From assembly GCA_030595925.1 (NCBI GenBank), contig JAUVLC010000002.1, positions 1 through 56,155 on the forward strand: DNA of 56,155 bases, in the 5' to 3' direction. This stretch comes from Clostridia bacterium. GTDB lineage: Bacteria > CBDUZB01 > JAGLHV01. Both the position numbers and the translations under genes were made by a program. This document shows positions 24,847-42,540 of this stretch, in pieces. How positions within the stretch are numbered: position 1 is the stretch's first letter; each line of letters starts with the position of its first letter. The notes below the pieces were generated by a model. It saw only the letters and a list, made by a program, of their open reading frames with translations, was not told the DNA's origin and did no database searches.

Positions 24847-25347
24847 ATGGAAGATTTTACTGAGAAAATGGAAAATGAACGGAATAAATGGCAGGTACTT
24901 ACAGAGAAAATACCCGGGTATGGGGGATATAAAGATAGGGAAAGAAGAAGGGATGCCGATAAATTAATTCGGGATTTTCTGGTAAAAGAGCTTAATCAAA
25001 GTAAAGAAAAAATTGCCCAAATTGCTTCAGAGAAGGTAGAAAAAAAACAGTTATCCGGAATTGACAGGATTGATCGATTGACTAAAAAAATGGAAAAAAT
25101 AGCAGATAAAATTCGCTTTGCTGATTATGGATATAGTGGTTTTTTTGATCAGATTAAAATTGATGCTAAAAAATTAGATGATATTTATGATTTTGATCAT
25201 TCGTTAATAGAAAAAGTTGAAGAATTGAAAAAAATGATTGAAACAGTAAAAAAAGAGGCAACAGAAGAAAAAATTTCTTTACTTTCGGAAAAAATTGAAA
25301 AGTTAGATGATATTTTTTCTGAAAGAGAAAAAGGAATAATTATTTAA
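24847..25347 (+). CDS. uncharacterised coiled-coil protein at the head of the SPFH/zinc-ribbon cluster
   Basis: A 166-residue soluble protein that I do not recognise as a named family. It has a short conserved-looking motif, IPGYGGYKDRERRRDADK (24-41), followed by predicted helices and coiled-coil to the end, rich in Lys and Glu. There is no signal peptide or membrane segment. AGGAGG precedes the ATG. It lies 33 bases upstream of the SPFH protein and is probably its partner. In Bacillus the coiled-coil PspA is encoded beside a related SPFH protein (YdjI), so a PspA-like role is possible, but the sequence lacks PspA hallmarks. Confidence 0.75.
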   Translation: MEDFTEKMENERNKWQVLTEKIPGYGGYKDRERRRDADKLIRDFLVKELNQSKEKIAQIASEKVEKKQLSGIDRIDRLTKKMEKIADKIRFADYGYSGFFDQIKIDAKKLDDIYDFDHSLIEKVEELKKMIETVKKEATEEKISLLSEKIEKLDDIFSEREKGIII

Positions 25348-25380
25348 AATAGCATAAAAAAAAAGAAGGAGGAAATTAAA

Positions 25381-26430
25381 ATGGGAATTTTAATTGAAGT
25401 TTTGGAATTTTTGGATGAAACGGGAAAAGAAATGGTGCATCGTATTCCGGAGGGTGGTTCCGGGGATATTAAAATGGGTGCACAGCTTATTGTCCGGGAA
25501 AATCAAAAAGCAGTGTTTTTTCGTGACGGAAAAGCCCTGGATACTTTTGGGTCAGGCAGGCATGTTTTAACAACCGAAAATATTCCCATTATTACCCGGG
25601 TTTTAAGTTTACCTTATGGTTTTAAGAGTCCTTTTCGGGCAGAAGTATATTTTGTTAATGAAAAAGTTTTTATTAATATGAAATGGGGGACAAAGGAACC
25701 GGTTGTTTTTCATGATTCGGAATTAAAAATGGTTAGGTTACGCGGTTTTGGAATGTTTTCCACTAGAATTACCGATGCTCAACTTTTTGTAAATAAGATT
25801 GTAGGAACCCAGGGTAGTTATAATTCAGAACTATTGGAGGATTTTTTTAGGGAAATAATTATAGGCAGATTAAATGACCTTTTAGGTGAAAATTTAAAAA
25901 CAATATTTGATCTTCCTCAATATTATGATGAATTAGCCATGGGAATGAAAACAAGGCTGAGGGATGATTTTGCTAAATACGGAGTGGAGTTGGTTGATTT
26001 TATTATTGGGTCTATTACTGTACCTAAAAAGGTCCAGGAGGTTATTGATGAAAGAAGTGGCCTGGAAGCAGTAGGGGGGTTGCAGGGATATATGCAATTT
26101 AAAGCAGCCCGGGCAATAGAAGAAGCAGCTAAAGGACGAACAGAAGGAGGAGGAAGAGCTGCCGGTTCAGGAATGGGTATGGGTTTAGGAGCAGGAATGG
26201 GAATGATGTTACCCGGTATGATTATGCAATCAATGCAGGGAAAGCAGACTGTCCCCGGTGGAGCAACAATAAAATGTCCCAAGTGTCAGGTGACTATGGC
26301 TGCCGGAGCAAAGTTTTGTTCTAATTGCGGAGAAAAATTAGTTCATGAAGAAACAAAAACCTGTCCGCAATGCAAAAATACTATTCCCTCAGAGGTTAAA
26401 TTTTGTCCTGAGTGTGGTAAGAAAGTATAA
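25381..26430 (+). CDS. SPFH-domain protein with double zinc ribbon (YdjI-like)
   Basis: A 349-residue protein. Residues about 20-230 match the YdjI/virion-core-like SPFH domain ([20 protein letters not shown], later [20 protein letters not shown]). About 245-290 form a Gly/Met-rich linker ([17 protein letters not shown]) that could touch the membrane. The C-terminus holds two four-Cys zinc ribbons: C299/C302/C313/C316 and C328/C331/C342/C345. SPFH proteins oligomerise on membranes; YdjI in Bacillus works with PspA and the membrane proteins YdjGH in envelope stress. Three zinc-ribbon genes follow, supporting a similar membrane scaffold. Confidence 0.9.
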
Positions 26431-26514
26431 TAAAATTTGGTTTTAATGTAGACATGAGATTTTTCTCCGGAAGAAACCGGGTTGTGATTTGCGGGGATAA
26501 AGAAGAGGAATTTT

Positions 26515-27273
26515 ATGCAGGTTAAATGTAATCAATGCGGAGCTGAACTAAAAATAAAACCCAATGAAATATTTTTTAGTTGTACTTATTGCGGTTCTTC
26601 TTTATATTTAGATGCCTCTCAAATAAGTTTTCATTATTATTTAGCTCCTAAAACAATCGATGGTGATTTAAAATTAATCCTTTCTGCTTTCCTGCAGCGA
26701 AAAAGCTTGAAACAAAAAATTAGAATAGAAAAAAAAGAAATTTTTTATTTCCCTTTTTGGTTATTAAAAGGGGGAGAAAAAGGAATAAAACTTAAACTTG
26801 CTGCTTCTACGGCAATTGATGAAATTGAAAAAGTTGTTATTCCCCCTGCAGGGAAATTAAATTTTTTTGATCCTGAAAATGAAGATATAAAAGGTAAAAA
26901 AATAGTAGCACCCGGTATTGCTTATGAAGCGGTTAAAAAAAATATGGAAGATGAAATTAAAAAAGGTGATTTTTCCCAAATTATGCTTTTGCATCTTCCG
27001 TTTTTTTTATGCCAGTATAGATATGCAGGAGAAAAAGGGGTATTTACGGTTTTAATTGATGCTGTCGGAGGGAAGATTTTTGCTAATTCTTTTCCCCATG
27101 TTTCTCTGGAAAAAATAGACTCTGAATTTTTTTGGGCAATAGGGATAACCTGTATTATTTTTTTTATGGAAGGATTAATGTTTAAAAATTTATTGGTTAA
27201 ACTATTTGTATATTTTATTTCTGCTTTTCCTTTATATTTATTATTACAGTATCTTCTCAGAAAGAAGTGGTAA
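26515..27273 (+). CDS. zinc-ribbon membrane protein, paralog 1
   Basis: A 252-residue protein with an N-terminal zinc ribbon (C5-x2-C8, C23-x2-C26: MQVKCNQCGAE and SCTYCGSS), a middle domain containing two Pro-aromatic motifs (YFPFWLLKGG and LHLPFFLCQYRYAG), and two C-terminal transmembrane helices (about 200-248). It belongs to the same small family as the next two genes. The shape matches a membrane-anchored partner of the upstream SPFH protein, comparable to YdjG. GAGGAA precedes the ATG. It is 85 bases from the SPFH gene and its stop nearly touches the next start. Confidence 0.8.
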   Translation: MQVKCNQCGAELKIKPNEIFFSCTYCGSSLYLDASQISFHYYLAPKTIDGDLKLILSAFLQRKSLKQKIRIEKKEIFYFPFWLLKGGEKGIKLKLAASTAIDEIEKVVIPPAGKLNFFDPENEDIKGKKIVAPGIAYEAVKKNMEDEIKKGDFSQIMLLHLPFFLCQYRYAGEKGVFTVLIDAVGGKIFANSFPHVSLEKIDSEFFWAIGITCIIFFMEGLMFKNLLVKLFVYFISAFPLYLLLQYLLRKKW

Positions 27274-27275
27274 CA

Positions 27276-28400
27276 ATGAAAGAAACGGTAGTAATTACTT
27301 TAAATTGTCCCCAGTGTGGTTCTTCTTTGAAAATAAAAGAAGGACAGCAGAATATAAGGTGCGGTGCCTGTTCCTCCTATTTATTGATTAAAGGTGGTGA
27401 AGGAGTAAATAAATTATATATTTCTTCGCTGGTAAATAAATCTAAAGCAGTGTTGAGAGTAAAAAAATGGTTTGACAGGGATGATACGGCTAATGATATT
27501 GGGTTAAGTAAGGTAAAAAGTGTTAAGTTAGTATATATTCCGCTTTGGAAATTGTCTTTTAAGGCAATCGGCTGGCGTTTTATGAAAAGAGAACATAAGC
27601 GTCGTAGTTATAGCGGTAACAGTTATTATGCGTTGGATAATTATGGATTTAATGAAGGACAGAAAAGTATCTCAAAGCGGGAAGCAAAACCTATTTTGCG
27701 TTTCGGAGAATGGATAGTTCCTGCTTGTGGAATAACTGATTTTGGAAGTGAATATGTTAAAATATCTCAAAATAGTTTAAAAAGGGGATTAAAAGTCTTA
27801 GAAGAGGATAAACTACAAGCGGAAGCAATGGTTTTTGATGTGACTATTCCTGCGGAATCTATTTTGGAGAAAAAAGAAAAATCACTGTTGGGCAATCTTC
27901 CTTTAAAGAGATCCACCTCAAATTTTTTCCAAATGGTTAAAAAAATTTCTACCAAAAAAATGTTGATTTATTATCCTTTATGGATAATAAGGTATGATTA
28001 TAAAGGACTGAGATATTTAGTTTCGGTGGATGGAGTGGAGGAAAAAATTGTTTACGCCCATTTTCCGGGAAATCCTCACTATCGGGTAGTTAATTTTTTG
28101 ATTGTAATTGCAGCAATTAATTTTGTATTAACCAGTATTATTCAGCGTCCCGGGGATTTAGTGAATGCTTTAATAAAAATGGAAGAGGTTTTTCTTTTGG
28201 CTTTGTTTTTATTGGGTTCTCTTTTATTTGGGTATTTTAAAGCGGGGATTAAGTCTTTTCGTTTTTCGGATGAAGTAATAGTGAAAAATGGTTTACGTGT
28301 AGATAAGGGATATGCTCCTACCCGGGATGTTTGGGACAATGTCGGATTTTTGGCTATGGAGCGATTGAAAGGGAGTTTGTCTGGTAGAAGATTTAGGTGA
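27276..28400 (+). CDS. zinc-ribbon membrane protein, paralog 2
   Basis: A 374-residue protein. The zinc ribbon is C11-x2-C14 and C29-x2-C32 (LNCPQCGSS, IRCGACSSY). Two Pro-Leu-Trp motifs follow, VYIPLWKLSF and IYYPLWIIRYDYKG, then two hydrophobic helices near 275-330 and a basic cytosolic tail. It is the longest of the three paralogs. The start could also be GTG 27267, inside the previous gene. Function unknown; it is probably co-transcribed with the SPFH gene. Confidence 0.8.
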   Translation: MKETVVITLNCPQCGSSLKIKEGQQNIRCGACSSYLLIKGGEGVNKLYISSLVNKSKAVLRVKKWFDRDDTANDIGLSKVKSVKLVYIPLWKLSFKAIGWRFMKREHKRRSYSGNSYYALDNYGFNEGQKSISKREAKPILRFGEWIVPACGITDFGSEYVKISQNSLKRGLKVLEEDKLQAEAMVFDVTIPAESILEKKEKSLLGNLPLKRSTSNFFQMVKKISTKKMLIYYPLWIIRYDYKGLRYLVSVDGVEEKIVYAHFPGNPHYRVVNFLIVIAAINFVLTSIIQRPGDLVNALIKMEEVFLLALFLLGSLLFGYFKAGIKSFRFSDEVIVKNGLRVDKGYAPTRDVWDNVGFLAMERLKGSLSGRRFR

Positions 28401-28413
28401 AAAAGGAATCTTT

Positions 28414-29055
28414 ATGAAAAAACAAAATATTTGTATTATTCCTTTAAAATGTTCTCAGTGTGGTATGGAATTGCAAGCTGTGGAAGGGGAACAGGTTTAT
28501 TATTGTAATAATTGTAAGACTGCTTTATATTTAAAAGATGGTGAGCTTGAAGTTCTTCCTGTAGAGTTTGCACTTCCGTCGATTGAAAGAGAGAAAGAAG
28601 AATATGTTTTTTTTCCTTTTTGGTCTTTTTTGGTAGATATTGAATTTTTTGCCGGATTGAAACAGGAAAGATTTACTCAATTTTCTTTAGCCCGAAATAA
28701 ACAAGGGGTATGGCAATATCATGTAGCAGGATTATGGGGAACGGATGATTTTGGTTATATTAACAGGACATCCAATTTGTTTATGCGTTTTTGCCCTCAA
28801 TACAAGTTGAGTTCTAACTTCTATCCGATGCAAAAATGTTTTTTATCCAGAGAGGAGGCGGAAGATTTAGTCGAATTAATATTTTTATCTTTGGAAAACG
28901 AAACAATAGTTTCATTAAGTAAAATTAATTACAAGATTAAGATTCTTTCTTCTAAAATGGTAGGTATCCCTTTTTATCTTGACCGGGAAAAAGATGTATA
29001 CAGAGATGCATTAGGGGGAAAAACAATTGTACCGGTTTCTTTATTTAATAAGTAG
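28414..29055 (+). CDS. zinc-ribbon protein, paralog 3 (no membrane helix)
   Basis: A 213-residue protein with the same N-terminal ribbon (C13-x2-C16, C31-x2-C34) and the same pair of motifs as its neighbours (VFFPFWSFLVD and VGIPFYLDRE), but no clear transmembrane segment. It is the last gene of the cluster, 13 bases after paralog 2. It may be a soluble subunit or a regulator of the other two. A repeat-rich gap follows, suggesting the end of the transcription unit. Confidence 0.78.
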   Translation: MKKQNICIIPLKCSQCGMELQAVEGEQVYYCNNCKTALYLKDGELEVLPVEFALPSIEREKEEYVFFPFWSFLVDIEFFAGLKQERFTQFSLARNKQGVWQYHVAGLWGTDDFGYINRTSNLFMRFCPQYKLSSNFYPMQKCFLSREEAEDLVELIFLSLENETIVSLSKINYKIKILSSKMVGIPFYLDREKDVYRDALGGKTIVPVSLFNK

Positions 29056-35992: not shown

Positions 35993-36064
35993 GAAAAGAA
36001 AAATACCTATCAATTTTTCCCCCTGGGGGATTTTGACAAAAGATATCGAATGGTAAATCTGTTC

Positions 36065-36086
36065 GTAGTCGCTCAATTTATTGAGC
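36065..36086 (+). repeat. GTAGYYG mini-hairpin repeat, copy 4
   Basis: GTAGTC followed by arms GCTCAAT / ATTGAGC around TT. Confidence 0.6.
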
Positions 36087-36172
36087 AAAAATGTTTAGGA
36101 TTGGGAAGTTTGCCTGTCCGCCAGTCTGTAAGGCGGGAACAAGGGAAAATAAAGGCAAAATATATTTCTCTC

Positions 36173-36201
36173 TAGACGCATAATTTTACCCTATGGGCAC
36201 G
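36173..36201 (-). other. weak dif-like site (possible XerCD recombination site)
   Basis: On the minus strand CGTGCCCATAG, 7 bases, TTATGCGTCTA. The left arm matches the E. coli dif XerC arm at 8 of 11 and the right arm shares its TTATG core only. It coincides with the G/C skew switch. The match is partial and the spacer one base long, so this is only a candidate. Confidence 0.2.
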
Positions 36202-36321
36202 CAAAAACAAGCTAAAAATGAAAAACTCGCTTTGCTCAAACAGTTCCATTTTTTTTACGCTTGTTTCTGCTAAAATTTGCTATATCGTTCGAAACACATT
36301 TCACCTTTATTTTTTCTGTTT

Positions 36322-36343
36322 GTAGTTGCTCCATTTATGGAGC
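36322..36343 (+). repeat. GTAGYYG mini-hairpin repeat, copy 5
   Basis: GTAGTT followed by arms GCTCCAT / ATGGAGC around TT; it differs from copy 4 by a covarying base pair. Confidence 0.6.
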
Positions 36344-36489
36344 TGTCTTTATCTTCTATTTTTTTGATTCATAACTTATAACTGTAGTTCCTGTCTATGA
36401 ACTATCGACTGCTGGAGCGGAGCGGAAGTCCACCAATCTTTAGTCCAGATGCCTTTGTGCCTGTCTTTTGTTTGTTGTCTTTTATCTAT

Positions 36490-36517
36490 GGACTATCGAC
36501 TGTGGACTATGGACTGT
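36490..36517 (+). repeat. degenerate 7-base tandem repeat (4 units)
   Basis: GGACTAT CGACTGT GGACTAT GGACTGT, with two further units at 36399-36412. Units fit the pattern NRACYRT, the same as the array at 55973-56014. Confidence 0.6.
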
Positions 36518-36614
36518 TTTTGTATTTATATTCACATTATTTAGTAAAAAACAAATATTTTTGTAAGATTTTTACTTATTTATCATCTAATCTAAGTGAA
36601 AGGAGAAAAATACC

Positions 36615-37109
36615 ATGAAATGCAAAAAAGCAAAAAAACTAATTTCTTACCAAATAGACGGCCAAATTAAAGCTAATGACCTAAGCGAATTAAAAAACCA
36701 TCTACTCCTTTGCCCTCATTGTAATAAAGAATACAAAGAACTTTTTGATTATAAGAATCTATTTAAGGAAACTTTTGATGATGTTACTCCCCCGGCTCTC
36801 TCTTCCCGTTTTGACCGGGTTTTTTACCGGCGTCTGGAAGAACAAACCATTTTACAAAAAACAAACATATTAGAAAAATTCATCCTACCCTACAAGCGTA
36901 TATGGGCTAAAGCAGGCATATTAGTAACAGCAGCAGTTTTAATCGTCACGCTAATTATTCCCAAAAACAAACCAATGGAAACACCGCTTAAAATGGCTGA
37001 ATCCAATTTAAGTACTTTAATTGAAAGTGCTGTGGCAAAAAGTAATGAAACCGAGGTGAAAAACTTCGTAGATTTACAGGCAAAAGAAATCTTACAAAAT
37101 TTTTTGTAA
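36615..37109 (+). CDS. zf-HC2 anti-sigma-factor-like membrane protein
   Basis: A 164-residue protein. The N-terminal zinc-finger fold shows C3, H29 and C33-x2-C36 (LLLCPHC), the zf-HC2/ZAS pattern of anti-sigma factors. One transmembrane helix lies at about 97-113, followed by a roughly 50-residue extracytoplasmic tail. ZAS proteins hold an ECF sigma factor in the cytoplasm and release it on an envelope signal. No sigma factor gene is adjacent, which is unusual. AAAGGAG precedes the ATG. It is first of an exported-protein gene group, 132 bases before the secreted protein. Confidence 0.75.
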   Translation: MKCKKAKKLISYQIDGQIKANDLSELKNHLLLCPHCNKEYKELFDYKNLFKETFDDVTPPALSSRFDRVFYRRLEEQTILQKTNILEKFILPYKRIWAKAGILVTAAVLIVTLIIPKNKPMETPLKMAESNLSTLIESAVAKSNETEVKNFVDLQAKEILQNFL

Positions 37110-37241
37110 GATTTAGATTATATTAACATCTAATAAAGCAAAAGGAGGTGGAAAAAGAAAATGAAAAAGCAAATAAGCAAAAAAGGATTATTTAAAGAAA
37201 TTTTGAAAAAATTTAATCGAAAAGGAAAGGAGGAAGAAATA

Positions 37242-38249
37242 ATGAAGAAAATCAGTAAAATAAGTTTAGTCTGTCTGGCAGTCTTAAGTTTGATAGTTGT
37301 AGGAGGAGTATTCGCCCGGGATTATGATTTGGTTAATGAATACCGTAGGGAAATTCGCCTGAGCAATGAAAGAGCATCAACCCAACGCAGTATTACCGGT
37401 GATACCAGAACTGCAGAATACGAAACAGGGAAAACCATCACTGATGTTAATGGTTACCGGGTAGAAATGGAGCAATATATCGAAAGAACAGACCTTGCAG
37501 CTAACCAGTACAAATTAGTTGTACTCAATAAAAGAACAGAATTACCTCCGGAAAAGCAACTTACTGAAGGGTATTCATTACAAACCTTTAATAAAGACCT
37601 ACCTGATAATTTAGGGGATTTATACGGCAAAATGAGTGGAATAGGTCAAGCACCGGAATACTATGCTACCGATATAGAAACCAGAGTATCCAACCCTGAA
37701 GGTGATAGTTGGCAACACGATTCGGAAGGGGGATTTCTCCACGAATATGCTACAAATGGTAGTTGTAGAGTTCTTTATGAGGTAGAAAAAACATCAGTCA
37801 ATGATATCCCCAAAATAAAAGTAGAAAGGAAAGATTATGATTTTCATCGCGAAGGCAACCAAACTTGGTCGGTGCCTAATAGACAGGGAGAATTAGCAAT
37901 ACTCTACAACGGACAGACAGGCCACCTTGATCTTGCAATATTACCCGCTTTGGATATACATATAAGTGGATCAGAAGCGCACTGGAGTGGAAAATTAATC
38001 TTTGTCGATGGTACTTTTATTTCTCACGAGCATTACCGGATTAACGATAAAGGAGAACCGCTGACCTGGAGAAAATTGTTCGGAGAAGGATTAACCATTG
38101 AAAACTGGCAGGAAGAAATCAGCCAATGGAATAATGAACACATCCTCGGAGCAAGTGAATTTAATGGAAGAAATATCGATATCGTCTGGTCACCACATAG
38201 TCTTGCTCTGGAAGTATTTCGCACTGACATTATTCCAGAAGATAATTAA
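37242..38249 (+). CDS. secreted protein of unknown function
   Basis: A 335-residue exported protein. Residues 1-24 are a classic signal peptide (MKKISKISLVCLAVLSLIVV, cleaved after GVFA). The mature part, about 310 residues, has no family I recognise; it is rich in charged and aromatic residues and looks like a soluble mixed alpha/beta protein. There are two in-frame starts, each with a strong ribosome site: ATG 37161 (GGAGGTG upstream) would add a Lys-rich 27-residue cytosolic leader, and ATG 37242 (AAAGGAGGA upstream) gives the clean signal peptide and is preferred. A strong terminator follows the stop. Confidence 0.75.
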   Translation: MKKISKISLVCLAVLSLIVVGGVFARDYDLVNEYRREIRLSNERASTQRSITGDTRTAEYETGKTITDVNGYRVEMEQYIERTDLAANQYKLVVLNKRTELPPEKQLTEGYSLQTFNKDLPDNLGDLYGKMSGIGQAPEYYATDIETRVSNPEGDSWQHDSEGGFLHEYATNGSCRVLYEVEKTSVNDIPKIKVERKDYDFHREGNQTWSVPNRQGELAILYNGQTGHLDLAILPALDIHISGSEAHWSGKLIFVDGTFISHEHYRINDKGEPLTWRKLFGEGLTIENWQEEISQWNNEHILGASEFNGRNIDIVWSPHSLALEVFRTDIIPEDN

Positions 38250-38288
38250 TAGGAGAAAATTTATCTCTATTGATGTAGAAACAAAACA

Positions 38289-38328
38289 CAGAGGGAAGAT
38301 AAAAAGTTTTCCCTCTGCGTTTATTTTA
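38289..38328 (+). terminator. intrinsic terminator after the secreted-protein gene
   Basis: CAGAGGGAA (38289-38297) pairs with TTCCCTCTG (38309-38317) around an 11-base loop, followed by a T-rich stretch. Confidence 0.8.
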
Positions 38329-38330
38329 TC

Positions 38331-38360
38331 TTGACAATTAGTTTTGTTATTTGTTAAACT
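38331..38360 (+). promoter_or_regulatory. promoter of the beta-barrel protein gene
   Basis: TTGACA (38331-38336), 18-base spacer and TAAACT (38355-38360), just after the terminator. The leader to the start is about 140 bases and contains a GC-rich palindrome. Confidence 0.6.
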
Positions 38361-38395
38361 TATTGACGATGTTACAATAATGCCTCATCCTCCAA

Positions 38396-38412
38396 ATCCG
38401 CCTGAGGCGGAT
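38396..38412 (+). repeat. GC-rich perfect palindrome in the leader
   Basis: ATCCGCCT-G-AGGCGGAT. Part of a GC-rich patch (38380-38455) that stands out in AT-rich DNA; a related AAATCCGCCT sequence is at 47003. It may be a dispersed repeat rather than an operator. Confidence 0.5.
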
Positions 38413-38505
38413 GAGACGGAGCGGAATGACCCGCCTTAAGGACTGTCGGGCAGACAGAATACTGTATTTTGCAAAAATCTCACGAACTAACCAAAGGGGG
38501 AATGC

Positions 38506-39762
38506 TTGAAAATGTTTAAAAATAAAATTACTGTCGGATTATTTATTTATTTTTTTGTTTTTTCTTTTTTCTTTTTTATATCAGCTGAAGCGAAAATAGA
38601 AGTCGTTCCTTTGCTTGATTTAAAATTAGGTGGAGGAAATTCTTATTTTGAAGGGGAATCCAGTTCGTTCGGAGGTAACTTTAGTCTGCATTTAGTACCG
38701 GCAATAAGATTTGGTAGAACAACCACCCTGCTTCCCCGCTATAGTGCTTATTACTCAGGATACAGATTAGCTATAGAAATAGAAGATGAAGAAAGCCTCT
38801 ATCAACAATCTTTTGACCATACACTCTCGCTTAAATTAATCCAGGAAATTTTACCCGATTTTAAATTCAGGGCAGAATACGGCCAGGATACGGAACTACT
38901 CAAAGAAACCAAGGACGAATCATGGGGTGATGGATTATATGATTATAACAGTCCCTATACTAATTTCGAGTTAGAAAAAAAATTCCCCATAGGAAACGGC
39001 TCTTCATTTCTTCTGGGAGGAGGAATGAGACTCTATAATATTACTTATCCCAACTATCAATCTCTATCCAGCGAAATAGGACTGGAATTAATGGGAAAAA
39101 ATGTTCTGGATAATAAAAATGCGGATGTTTTTATTAATGGTGAAATCTTCTGGAATTCAAAATATTTCACTCACTGGAAATTTACTCACACCAGAAGCGA
39201 TTATAACGACCAAAAAATAATTACTAATTCCGGAGAATATTCCAATGAAAAAAGAAATGACCGGATTAGCAATTTTACTGTCGGTTTAAATTTTAATCCG
39301 GACAGAAAGTATTATCTGGGTTTTGAGGAAGACGGATATTACAAAATATATTCGGGAATAGATCTGGTTTTTAAAACGAAAACCTCCAATCAAAACCATT
39401 TTGATACTGAATTTCTAATGTTTACCCCCCACTTCTACAGCTATAATCAAGTAAAATTCATCCCTTCTATTACCTTTAAATTTGTACCTGGTAACACCAA
39501 TGTTACCTTAAGTTGTAACTTTTCGTTTAAAAATTATCCCGATAGATTAGCTCAAAATACTCTCGGTGAATATACCAATGACAACCTTTCTTCTCAATCA
39601 GGCGGTATAATGCTAAATCTTTCTTCTCCTATTAATGAACGAATTTATGTGGAATTAGGCTGTGGCTATAAAAAAACATCTTCTAATATGAAATACGAAA
39701 CTTTTTATCAATATAATTATTCTACCGCTGATTATTCAATGGGAATTTGCTATCGGTATTAA
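38506..39762 (+). CDS. predicted outer membrane beta-barrel protein
   Basis: A 418-residue exported protein. The signal peptide covers the first 30 or so residues (FFFFISAEAK). The mature chain is mostly amphipathic beta-strands with many Tyr, Phe, Asn and Ser and no Cys clusters, and ends GICYRY with a terminal Tyr, as outer membrane barrels do. I do not recognise a specific family; it has no plug domain. The start could be TTG 38506 (five bases after AAAGGGGG) or ATG 38512. It is followed after 14 bases by a periplasmic protein gene. Confidence 0.7.
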   Translation: MKMFKNKITVGLFIYFFVFSFFFFISAEAKIEVVPLLDLKLGGGNSYFEGESSSFGGNFSLHLVPAIRFGRTTTLLPRYSAYYSGYRLAIEIEDEESLYQQSFDHTLSLKLIQEILPDFKFRAEYGQDTELLKETKDESWGDGLYDYNSPYTNFELEKKFPIGNGSSFLLGGGMRLYNITYPNYQSLSSEIGLELMGKNVLDNKNADVFINGEIFWNSKYFTHWKFTHTRSDYNDQKIITNSGEYSNEKRNDRISNFTVGLNFNPDRKYYLGFEEDGYYKIYSGIDLVFKTKTSNQNHFDTEFLMFTPHFYSYNQVKFIPSITFKFVPGNTNVTLSCNFSFKNYPDRLAQNTLGEYTNDNLSSQSGGIMLNLSSPINERIYVELGCGYKKTSSNMKYETFYQYNYSTADYSMGICYRY

Positions 39763-39776
39763 ATAAACCTTAAAAA

Positions 39777-40811
39777 ATGAAAAAAACAACTTTATCTTTA
39801 GTTTTATTAATTCTAATCTTTAATTTGTTTTTTTTGCTGCCTTTGGAAGCAAGTAATCTGATTTCCATTATCAGCCCTCTTGCTATTAGTACCGAAGACG
39901 CAGAACAAATTGTAGAAGGAAAAGTAGAAGAATCCTTTATTTCCCGTCTAAAACTTTCGGTAGAACCATTCCTGCCCCGAAAAGGGGAAAAACCAAAAAC
40001 AGTCATTATTGAGGTTAAAAAAGGAATTTTCAGGGAAAACATTATTCTCTTCCCCGGATTAAATATTATCAGTATTTCCACTTTAAGCGGAAAACACAAA
40101 CAAAATAAAGCAATCTTTCTAATCACCCACAAACACAAAAAAGAAAATCAATTTCAAACCCCCATAGAACAATGGGGAACTAATTCCCCTATTGTATTTA
40201 CCACCCCACAAACCCTAAAAACAAACAAACCCAGAGTTTTTATTAAGGGAGTAATTACCAAACCCGAAATTAAAACAATAAAAATTATGGCAATCAATAC
40301 TATGGATTTTTTAACCAGTAAACCTATATCTTCTTCCCGGGAAGAAAGAATTGATTATCATGAGGTTAAAATTAAAAACTTGCAATTTGGCTTTCCGGTT
40401 AAATTAACCGAAGGTTTGAATATAATTATTGCCCGTCCCAGCCTGCTTTCCACTGAAACAATTGACCCAACTATCCTTCAAATAAAAACCCTTATTTATG
40501 AAAAGTTATCTTCGCAAATTTTATTAGATGAACCGCAAATGCAAGACGGAACCCTGATTATAAAAGGAAAAGTAACAGATCCTGCAATTAAAAAAGTGCG
40601 AATAAATGTTTCTGCTTTGGTTAAAGAAGAAATTCGCCCGGGAATACAATCCAAAACACTGATTAATAAAAAAATAAAAGTAAACAACAAGGGTGAGTTT
40701 GCTCTCAAATTAGCGCTGGAGAAAAAAGGACTTTATATAATAAAATCCCCTCCTACTATCAATGTGTGGGCGAACGGAAATAACGCTACAAAAACTATCC
40801 TTAAATGGTAA
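39777..40811 (+). CDS. exported protein with Ig-like repeats
   Basis: A 344-residue exported protein. Residues 1-25 are a signal peptide (LLLVIL-type core, cut near LEAS). Three weak repeats of Ig/filamin type follow, each with a G-x-V/I-T-x-P-x-I-K pattern (VEGKVEESF near 46, FIKGVITKPEIKTIKI near 154, IIKGKVTDPAIKKVRI near 261). It resembles periplasmic or surface adhesion-type domains. It lies 14 bases after the beta-barrel gene and may be its partner. No catalytic motif is visible. Confidence 0.65.
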   Translation: MKKTTLSLVLLILIFNLFFLLPLEASNLISIISPLAISTEDAEQIVEGKVEESFISRLKLSVEPFLPRKGEKPKTVIIEVKKGIFRENIILFPGLNIISISTLSGKHKQNKAIFLITHKHKKENQFQTPIEQWGTNSPIVFTTPQTLKTNKPRVFIKGVITKPEIKTIKIMAINTMDFLTSKPISSSREERIDYHEVKIKNLQFGFPVKLTEGLNIIIARPSLLSTETIDPTILQIKTLIYEKLSSQILLDEPQMQDGTLIIKGKVTDPAIKKVRINVSALVKEEIRPGIQSKTLINKKIKVNNKGEFALKLALEKKGLYIIKSPPTINVWANGNNATKTILKW

Positions 40812-40896
40812 AAAAAAATACGCTGATTTCTGTGACTTTTGCGAAAAAATTGAGCAAGTCTTCGAGTTTTAGCAAAAATATAAATTTTAAATAAAA

Positions 40897-40923
40897 AAAA
40901 TCCCTAAAAAAAATAGGGATTTT
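40897..40923. terminator. bidirectional intrinsic terminator
   Basis: AAAATCCCTA (40897-40906) pairs with TAGGGATTTT (40914-40923), flanked by A and T runs. It separates the convergent Ig-like and GH57 genes and can serve both. Confidence 0.8.
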
Positions 40924-40956
40924 TAAAATTAGATAATTTTTTTATAAAAGCCGTTC

Positions 40957-42540
40957 TTAGCTATAAACCGTGTAATCCATCCAGGGAAAAATATTATCTT
41001 TATATTCTATATCGGAAAGCCAATCTTTATCTATCTTATCTTCTTTTATATCATTATATAATTTGGTAAACCGATTAAGATGTTCTTTGGTCCTTTTCTG
41101 CGCATAACTAACTACTGTCCCGGTAGTCATAATAAAAGCCCAATCACTACTCTGGGCTAAAAGTAATTCCCTCGCTGCCTGATTTAGCGCCTGTTCTTTA
41201 ATCCCATTCGCCTGAGGATTTTCCCTGCTTACCTCCATCATTCTCTCTACCGCTTTATGTAAATGCCTATAAATCCAGTCATTAGAACCATTCAACCAAC
41301 ACTCATTATATCCTTTATCCCCCCATGTTGACATAGAAGGAGTAACGACTTGATTTCTAGGGTTTTCCCTTAAATATTCTATTGGTGTAATTAATCTTAT
41401 CGTTTTCTGATCATAATGAATTTTTCGGAATAAAAAATCAATGAAAGCTGGACCTTCATACCACCAGTGCCCAAACAATTCCGCATCGTAAGGAGAAACA
41501 ATTATGGGTTTCTTTCCCATTAAATCGCTAAGATATTCTAACTGTTTTCCCCTATTAAACACAAAATTGCCTGCATGAGCAGCAGCTGCATCCAGAGCAT
41601 CTTGCGGACAATATGGCTTTTTATCATATAAAGGAACCTGTCCTGTAATCTTATAATATTTAATTCCTATATTCTTTCTTATCCCATTAGACTGTAAGTG
41701 CGGCCGAATATATTCATAATCAGCATCATAACCTAAATCACGGTAGAACTCTCTATAACGAAAATCACCCGGATAACCCGTATTTGCACTCCAGACCTGA
41801 TGGGATGACTCTGTATCCCGAGCAAAAGCTGCAACCCCTGAAGGACAAAAAACCGGCGAAAAAACTCCATATTTCGGCCGCGGGTTACCATACATTAATC
41901 CATGAGTATCGATAAAGAAAAATTTAATTTTTTCTTCTTTAAGAACCTCATCAATGCCCGAACCATAAGCACATTCTGAAAGCCACATCCCTCCTGGTTT
42001 TCGTCCAAAGCGCATTTCATAATCTCTCACTGCAACCTTTACCTGTGCTTCTTTTGCTTTTTGATTAACCATTAACGGTAAAATACCATGAGTAGCACAT
42101 CCGGTAATAATTTCTACTTTTCCCATATCCTGAAATTTTTTAAAAGCCGAAAGAACATTCTTATGATATTTATCTTCAAAGATATAACGCGCTGTTTTAA
42201 ATTTTTTCTCGTACATTTGAGCCACATTGCAAAGCTCAGGAATCCATTGTAAACGTTTCACCTCTTTTTCTGATAATTCAATCAATTTATATAGATACCG
42301 AAGATACCGCTCCCGCAGTAGGGAATCAGAAAGCATGGCACATAAAGGAGGAGTTAAAGATAAGGTAAGCCTAAAATCAATATGTTCTTCTACTAATCGG
42401 TCAAAAATCTCAATTAACGGAAGATATGTCTCGGTAATTGCTTCAAAAAGCCAGTCCTCTTCCATAAAATCTTTATGCTCAGGATGACGAATAAAAGGAA
42501 GATGTGCATGCAATACAAAACATAAATACCCTTTTTCCAT
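40957..42540 (-). CDS. 1,4-alpha-glucan branching enzyme, GH57 family (DUF1957)
   Basis: A 527-residue GH57 enzyme that makes alpha-1,6 branches in glycogen. The N-terminal barrel begins GYLCFVLHAHLPFIRHPE; the catalytic nucleophile is E189 in GGMWLSECAYG and the acid/base is D352 in SPYDAELFGHWW, both at the positions known for GH57 branching enzymes of Thermus and Thermococcus. A C-terminal helical domain contains SSDWAFIM. The length equals the Thermus-type enzyme. The DUF4912 gene precedes it by 47 bases in the same direction. Confidence 0.93.
   Translation of the reverse strand: MEKGYLCFVLHAHLPFIRHPEHKDFMEEDWLFEAITETYLPLIEIFDRLVEEHIDFRLTLSLTPPLCAMLSDSLLRERYLRYLYKLIELSEKEVKRLQWIPELCNVAQMYEKKFKTARYIFEDKYHKNVLSAFKKFQDMGKVEIITGCATHGILPLMVNQKAKEAQVKVAVRDYEMRFGRKPGGMWLSECAYGSGIDEVLKEEKIKFFFIDTHGLMYGNPRPKYGVFSPVFCPSGVAAFARDTESSHQVWSANTGYPGDFRYREFYRDLGYDADYEYIRPHLQSNGIRKNIGIKYYKITGQVPLYDKKPYCPQDALDAAAAHAGNFVFNRGKQLEYLSDLMGKKPIIVSPYDAELFGHWWYEGPAFIDFLFRKIHYDQKTIRLITPIEYLRENPRNQVVTPSMSTWGDKGYNECWLNGSNDWIYRHLHKAVERMMEVSRENPQANGIKEQALNQAARELLLAQSSDWAFIMTTGTVVSYAQKRTKEHLNRFTKLYNDIKEDKIDKDWLSDIEYKDNIFPWMDYTVYS

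Follow-up and report, generated by a model that had tools for sequence, protein, structure and literature searches.

Five co-directional genes of a Clostridia bacterium, at 24847-29055 of the window (the whole stretch of 56,155 nucleotides from contig JAUVLC010000002.1 that was analysed), encode a helical protein, P1, an SPFH protein, P2, and three zinc-ribbon proteins, P3, P4 and P5. On balance, we read them as a divergent SPFH membrane module of the YdjI/YdjG type that has no PspA and that carries P1 in the slot where some of its relatives carry PspA. Comparison across genomes shows that P1-P2 is a conserved gene pair and that P3-P4-P5 is a conserved set, all joined in one cluster in several lineages. 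The first-pass annotation of this DNA had proposed a candidate new envelope system; we do not regard the module as wholly new, because the SPFH and YdjG-like parts are homologous to the known YdjG/YdjI kind. Judged by homology, these parts are the known ones, and the P1 partner and the set of ribbon proteins are what is new.

Gene layout and the SPFH protein

An ORF check of the window found all five ORFs on the + strand, as had been annotated, with 33 bases between P1 and P2, 84 between P2 and P3, P3 and P4 nearly abutting, and 13 bases between P4 and P5. In the genus the module is flanked by rny-ymdB on one side and by xseA-xseB on the other. For P4, the ATG at 27276 is a likelier start than the GTG at 27267, because the homologue in G002 begins at the ATG. 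Compared with sister genomes, the five genes have dN/dS values of 0.05-0.24 and are therefore under purifying selection. In the genome collection used here G000 has two congeners, and its next nearest genomes share only the domain with it. Promoter-like sites at the module were fewer than in shuffled sequences, and we claim no promoter. Elsewhere in the window, at 36000-42000, the GC skew passes from positive to negative and the gene strand switches near 40-41 kb, a change that may be replication-terminus-like or a simple strand-bias boundary.

P2 (25381..26430) has its Band_7_1 domain at residues 28-228 (25462..26064), with 209 bits against a cut-off of 24 (E=7.1e-62). It continues with a Gly/Met-rich linker at about residues 255-290 (26143..26250), seen in the sequence and present in relatives too, and ends in two zinc ribbons (26269..26427; CxxC at residues 299, 313, 328 and 342), so that its original description as an SPFH protein with such a linker and two ribbons is borne out. 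Having no transmembrane anchor of its own and a C-terminal zinc finger, P2 belongs with the YdjI type; among 14 control genomes, B. subtilis gave the sole Band_7_1 match. The number of ribbons ranges from 0 to 4 in P2-type SPFH relatives by pattern count, and the SPFH tails of four YdjG-linked relatives (L140, L143, L144 and L145) have none. By eye, the tails of L140, L143 and L145 end in a GPF/GPY...W segment resembling the GYF_2 type.

The zinc-ribbon proteins

P3 (26515..27273), P4 (27276..28400) and P5 (28414..29055) each begin with one CxxC...CxxC zinc ribbon and each repeat a Pro-aromatic motif twice (YFPFW and LPFF in P3, YIPLW and YYPLW in P4, FFPFW and IPFY in P5), two features that the first-pass annotation had singled out and that are conserved in relatives. 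The four ribbon cysteines are invariant in 17/17 relatives of P4, 8/8 of P3 and 8/8 of P5, and the motif prolines are nearly invariant among 25 P3/P4 relatives; neither feature is therefore due to chance. The invariance of the cysteines, together with the dN/dS range given above, also led us to reject the idea that the ribbons are relics and to regard them as intact. P3 ends in a transmembrane hairpin and P4 has two C-terminal transmembrane segments, while P5 has none and is predicted to be soluble, in agreement with the earlier view that two of the three proteins are membrane-anchored and one is not.

The likeness to ydjG and ydjI that had been noticed proves to be true homology. P4 aligned with YdjG-like proteins at an hhalign probability of 99.3% (E=1e-20, 249 columns), covering the second YdjG ribbon and the whole core, and P3 did so at 98.6% over 86 columns; the comparison set included an Enterococcus homologue encoded between SPFH and TPM genes, which was used rather than B. 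subtilis YdjG itself. Homology also links P3 with P4 (99.8%), and P5, a divergent paralogue, is tied to them by 38 ribbon columns only. None of the three has the two N-terminal ribbons of YdjG, each having one. In a tree of moderate support, with long branches and several unsure joins, P3 falls on one side of a branch (87/94) with the P4 lines outside, YdjG-like proteins lie on another side, and P4 forms stand between P3 and the YdjG-like proteins. The supposed triplication of a YdjG-like gene is old; a recent triplication of one gene was rejected, because P3 and P4 are separate lines in the tree.

An AF2 model of P3 built with 25 relatives (pLDDT 86) consists of the ribbon, two alpha/beta units and the transmembrane hairpin. 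In the model, and by the homology of the repeats, YFPFW lies on the long strand of repeat 1 (residues 69-85; 26719..26769) and LPFF on that of repeat 2 (residues 155-170; 26977..27024). The two halves align by profile at 87.5% (E=3.6e-6), with unrelated controls below 0.3%, although a comparison with a narrower set of 14 P3 rows gave 9% only; judging from their alignment, the Pro-aromatic motif is probably present twice because of an internal duplication. The P3 core matched the C-terminal domain of YpeB (5boi; Z 5.0, rmsd 2.7, 69 aligned) and a lipoprotein (4exr; Z 5.0, rmsd 2.3, 63 aligned). The likeness to YpeB C-terminal or PepSY-like domains is weak, at a score that common arrangements also reach, but it agrees with the description of the YdjG core as YpeB-related (PMC11237479). 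P3 differs from those domains in having two repeats per domain, a ribbon ahead and a transmembrane hairpin behind.

P1, PspA and the recurrence of the P1-P2 pair

P1 (24847..25347) is a protein of 166 residues with helices at 2-21, 25-65, 72-90, 107-136 and 140-165. Its family shares the motifs IPGYxGYxxKExRRxxDKxxR and YGYxGxFD, in which the P of IPGY, the R and D of the next helix and GYxG are among the invariant positions. It had been annotated as a coiled coil; the helices stand, whereas the AF2 model (pLDDT 80) gives a compact antiparallel bundle in place of a coiled coil. No Pfam family covers P1. The sole named family that matches it, almost end to end, is the uncharacterised NF047596 (LIMLP_15305, from Leptospira; 8e-17), and since the score of 61.7 bits does not reach the curated cut-off of 210 bits, P1 is by sequence a homologue that lies outside the curated family. 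In the open-access literature searched, LIMLP_15305 turned up solely in a table that lists Leptospira non-coding RNAs.

P1 was tried as a PspA relative and rejected, there being no profile similarity: against 19 PspA hhalign gave a probability of 0.5% (E=0.11), and PF04012 had no match in P1, which agrees, as far as sequence goes, with the earlier statement that the two are unrelated. Foldseek found nothing below E 0.001 for the P1 model in the PDB, so there is no close match, and the best fold match was IncA at Z 13.2, about the usual level for helical bundles. PspA and ESCRT-III are not among the fold matches listed for P1, which is not evidence of difference. As a family mean, the N-terminal helix is amphipathic (moment 0.46, against 0.27 when shuffled), although this property, expected of a membrane binder, is not clear in the P1 of the window itself (0.22). 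Like P2 and P5, P1 has no transmembrane segments.

Neither PspA nor TPM is among the five genes by domain search, and searches with PF04012 (PspA) and PF04536 (TPM, YdjH), both of which worked in control genomes, gave no match in any of the genus's three genomes. Across the sampled genomes, PspA occurs in 5/24 that have P1 and in 78/362 that do not (p=1), that is, at the background rate, and a genome-wide replacement of PspA by P1 was rejected. P1 precedes the SPFH gene in P1 systems, and at L164, L165 and L166 (genomes G171, G309 and G328) it is PspA that clusters with a YdjG-like gene and this type of SPFH. Across genomes the two proteins neither exclude one another nor are associated, so that P1 is a positional counterpart of PspA within the module, not a general substitute for it, and the first-pass idea that PspA had been replaced by an unrelated protein can be kept for the genus and for the operon slot only.

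P1 relatives were sought with the NF047596 profile and then confirmed, which placed P1 in 24/386 sampled genomes; weak matches in G292 and G332 were excluded for want of confirmation. When species genomes were scanned with a subset of 5 out of 22 P1 sequences, 80 named loci came up, in many bacterial phyla and in archaea. The bacteria, named as in the record titles, include Armatimonadota/Zipacnadia, Planctomycetota, Chloroflexota, Acidobacteriota, Caldisericota, Eremiobacterota, WOR-3, Cloacimonadota, Coatesbacteria and Actinomycetota, and the archaea include Brockarchaeota and Nitrososphaeria. A script based on iterative HMM searches found P1 followed immediately by P2, in the same orientation, at 84/98 loci; L112, with a long P2 frame that the script missed, was added on inspection, and three loci stop at a contig edge, which makes the adjacency 85/95. 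Eight of the ten loci without an adjacent P2 are from Chloroflexota, and the other two, G122 and G259, have a Band_7_1 SPFH elsewhere in the genome. Such an SPFH protein is found in 23/24 genomes with P1 and in 35/362 without (Fisher p=3e-20, a guide only, since the sampled genomes are not independent); the one exception is G001, where P1 lies at a contig end. A few searches of the open-access literature found no paper on the P1-P2 pair, and nothing on an operon of SPFH, zinc-ribbon and PspA genes or on COG4260.

The full set of genes, which the first-pass annotation had suggested looking for in other genomes, also co-occurs elsewhere. The complete P1-P2-P3-P4-P5 order of the window is repeated in L056 (G221), L084 (Thermoanaerobaculia), L089 (Holophagae) and L125 (Acidobacteria), in Acidobacteriota and one further lineage. 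In L099 (Actinomycetota) the blocks are swapped to P3-P4-P5-P1-P2, five archaeal loci (L087, L091, L094, L114 and L129) combine P1-P2 with a pair of P4-like genes, and in G037, G187, G319 and G131 the P3-P4-P5 block and P1-P2 are on different contigs.

Several variants were observed along the way. The same archaeal loci encode one more protein, small and hydrophobic (about 108-134 residues), just before the P4-like genes. Single proteins encoded downstream of the SPFH gene at L058:7995-9311, L168:4968-6413 and L207:5099-6322 appear to be fusions of P3/P4-like and P5-like ribbon units, the one in L058 having no transmembrane segment. P1 is found with no SPFH gene alongside in Chloroflexota loci (L108, L126, L130, L132, L133 and others), and in Anaerolineae the gene after it resembles, by eye, a molybdenum dehydrogenase FAD subunit. 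Inspection by eye of L050:7922-12769 (G316) suggests a Cas9 gene, one resembling Cas1 and repeats after the P1-P2 pair.

Known relatives and a proposed role

The closest known system is pspA-ydjGHI of B. subtilis, which like the module is a co-directional cluster with an SPFH protein that has a low-complexity region, a C-terminal zinc finger and no membrane anchor of its own (PMC8581546), and with a YdjG-type partner that has zinc ribbons and a transmembrane end. It differs in that the genus has no detected PspA or TPM (YdjH) gene and has P1 there instead, and in that three one-ribbon proteins stand in place of one two-ribbon YdjG. The same SPFH type adjoins a YdjG-like protein in Vibrio, Paracoccus, Comamonas, Tsukamurella and others, but these dyads have no P1 and a single YdjG-like gene, and four plasmid examples have SPFH tails without zinc ribbons.

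In B. subtilis, YdjI is required for PspA foci, and its recruitment to the membrane needs YdjG and YdjH (PMC8581546). By analogy, P2 would form an oligomeric SPFH scaffold at the cytoplasmic membrane; it has no anchor of its own and would be kept there by P3 and P4, in the way that YdjG and YdjH hold YdjI. The ribbon and Pro-aromatic domains would provide protein-protein contacts, P5 would be a soluble adaptor, and P1 would be a helical client recruited to the membrane by the scaffold to do the job of PspA in B. subtilis, the sealing or stabilising of a stressed membrane, without being PspA. We infer the scaffold and anchor roles by homology; that of P1 as recruited effector is guessed with less assurance from gene order, because no relation to PspA could be detected for P1 and nothing in the PDB matches it closely.

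Assembling or regulating membrane proteins is a frequent task of SPFH families, and the module could instead be a chaperone, assembly or quality-control platform for membrane protein complexes, similar to HflKC or prohibitin, in which P1 would be a soluble chaperone-like subunit with no part in membrane remodelling. The modelled P1, a compact bundle and not a long PspA-like hairpin, would suit such a role, and chaperone-like roles have been argued for the partners of band-7 and TPM proteins (PMC11237479). However, no protease or other enzyme was observed as a conserved neighbour of P1-P2, and work on YdjI, the nearest homologue to have been studied, connects it with PspA and envelope stress, so that we consider this platform unlikely, if still the best of the alternatives. 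A metal-sensing or metal-handling module, with the ribbons as zinc sensors or as a zinc store, might be suspected from the four ribbon-bearing proteins and the invariant cysteines of P3-P5. Such ribbons mostly serve as structural or contact modules, though, and their variable number in P2 relatives, down to their absence from the four YdjG-linked tails, as well as the lack of a linked metal transporter, make it improbable. Membrane modules without a known function sometimes turn out to be defence genes, but an anti-phage system is highly improbable here, where nothing points to one, PADLOC gave no convincing match (best E 0.0014, to a ribbon only), the seat in the genus is between housekeeping genes and selection is purifying.

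The divergent YdjI/YdjG-type module with P1 in the PspA slot thus remains our preferred reading. A further step, which we find doubtful, would make P1 the first of a widespread and so far unrecognised membrane-acting family, present in bacteria and archaea, that matches PspA in function but has another fold and is delivered to the membrane by an SPFH/zinc-ribbon scaffold that is anchored by YdjG relatives. SPFH scaffolds and PspA/ESCRT-III-type proteins have been discussed as an old membrane partnership (PMC10936438), and a widespread version of the scaffold paired with another helical protein would mark the scaffold as constant and the effector as interchangeable. The P1 family, absent from Pfam, also gains a testable role, and three poorly described ribbon proteins are now linked to YdjG.

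Two further loci deserve mention. At L205:4758-5333, in a genome where P1 was not detected (G254), a P1-type SPFH gene is followed by the gene for a different helical-looking protein of 192 residues, possibly another SPFH partner family. A Paracoccus plasmid cluster (L140:2563-7281) encodes a toxic anion resistance protein, a DUF2927 protein, an SPFH protein and a zinc-ribbon YdjG-like protein, and holds another candidate partner family beside its SPFH-YdjG pair.
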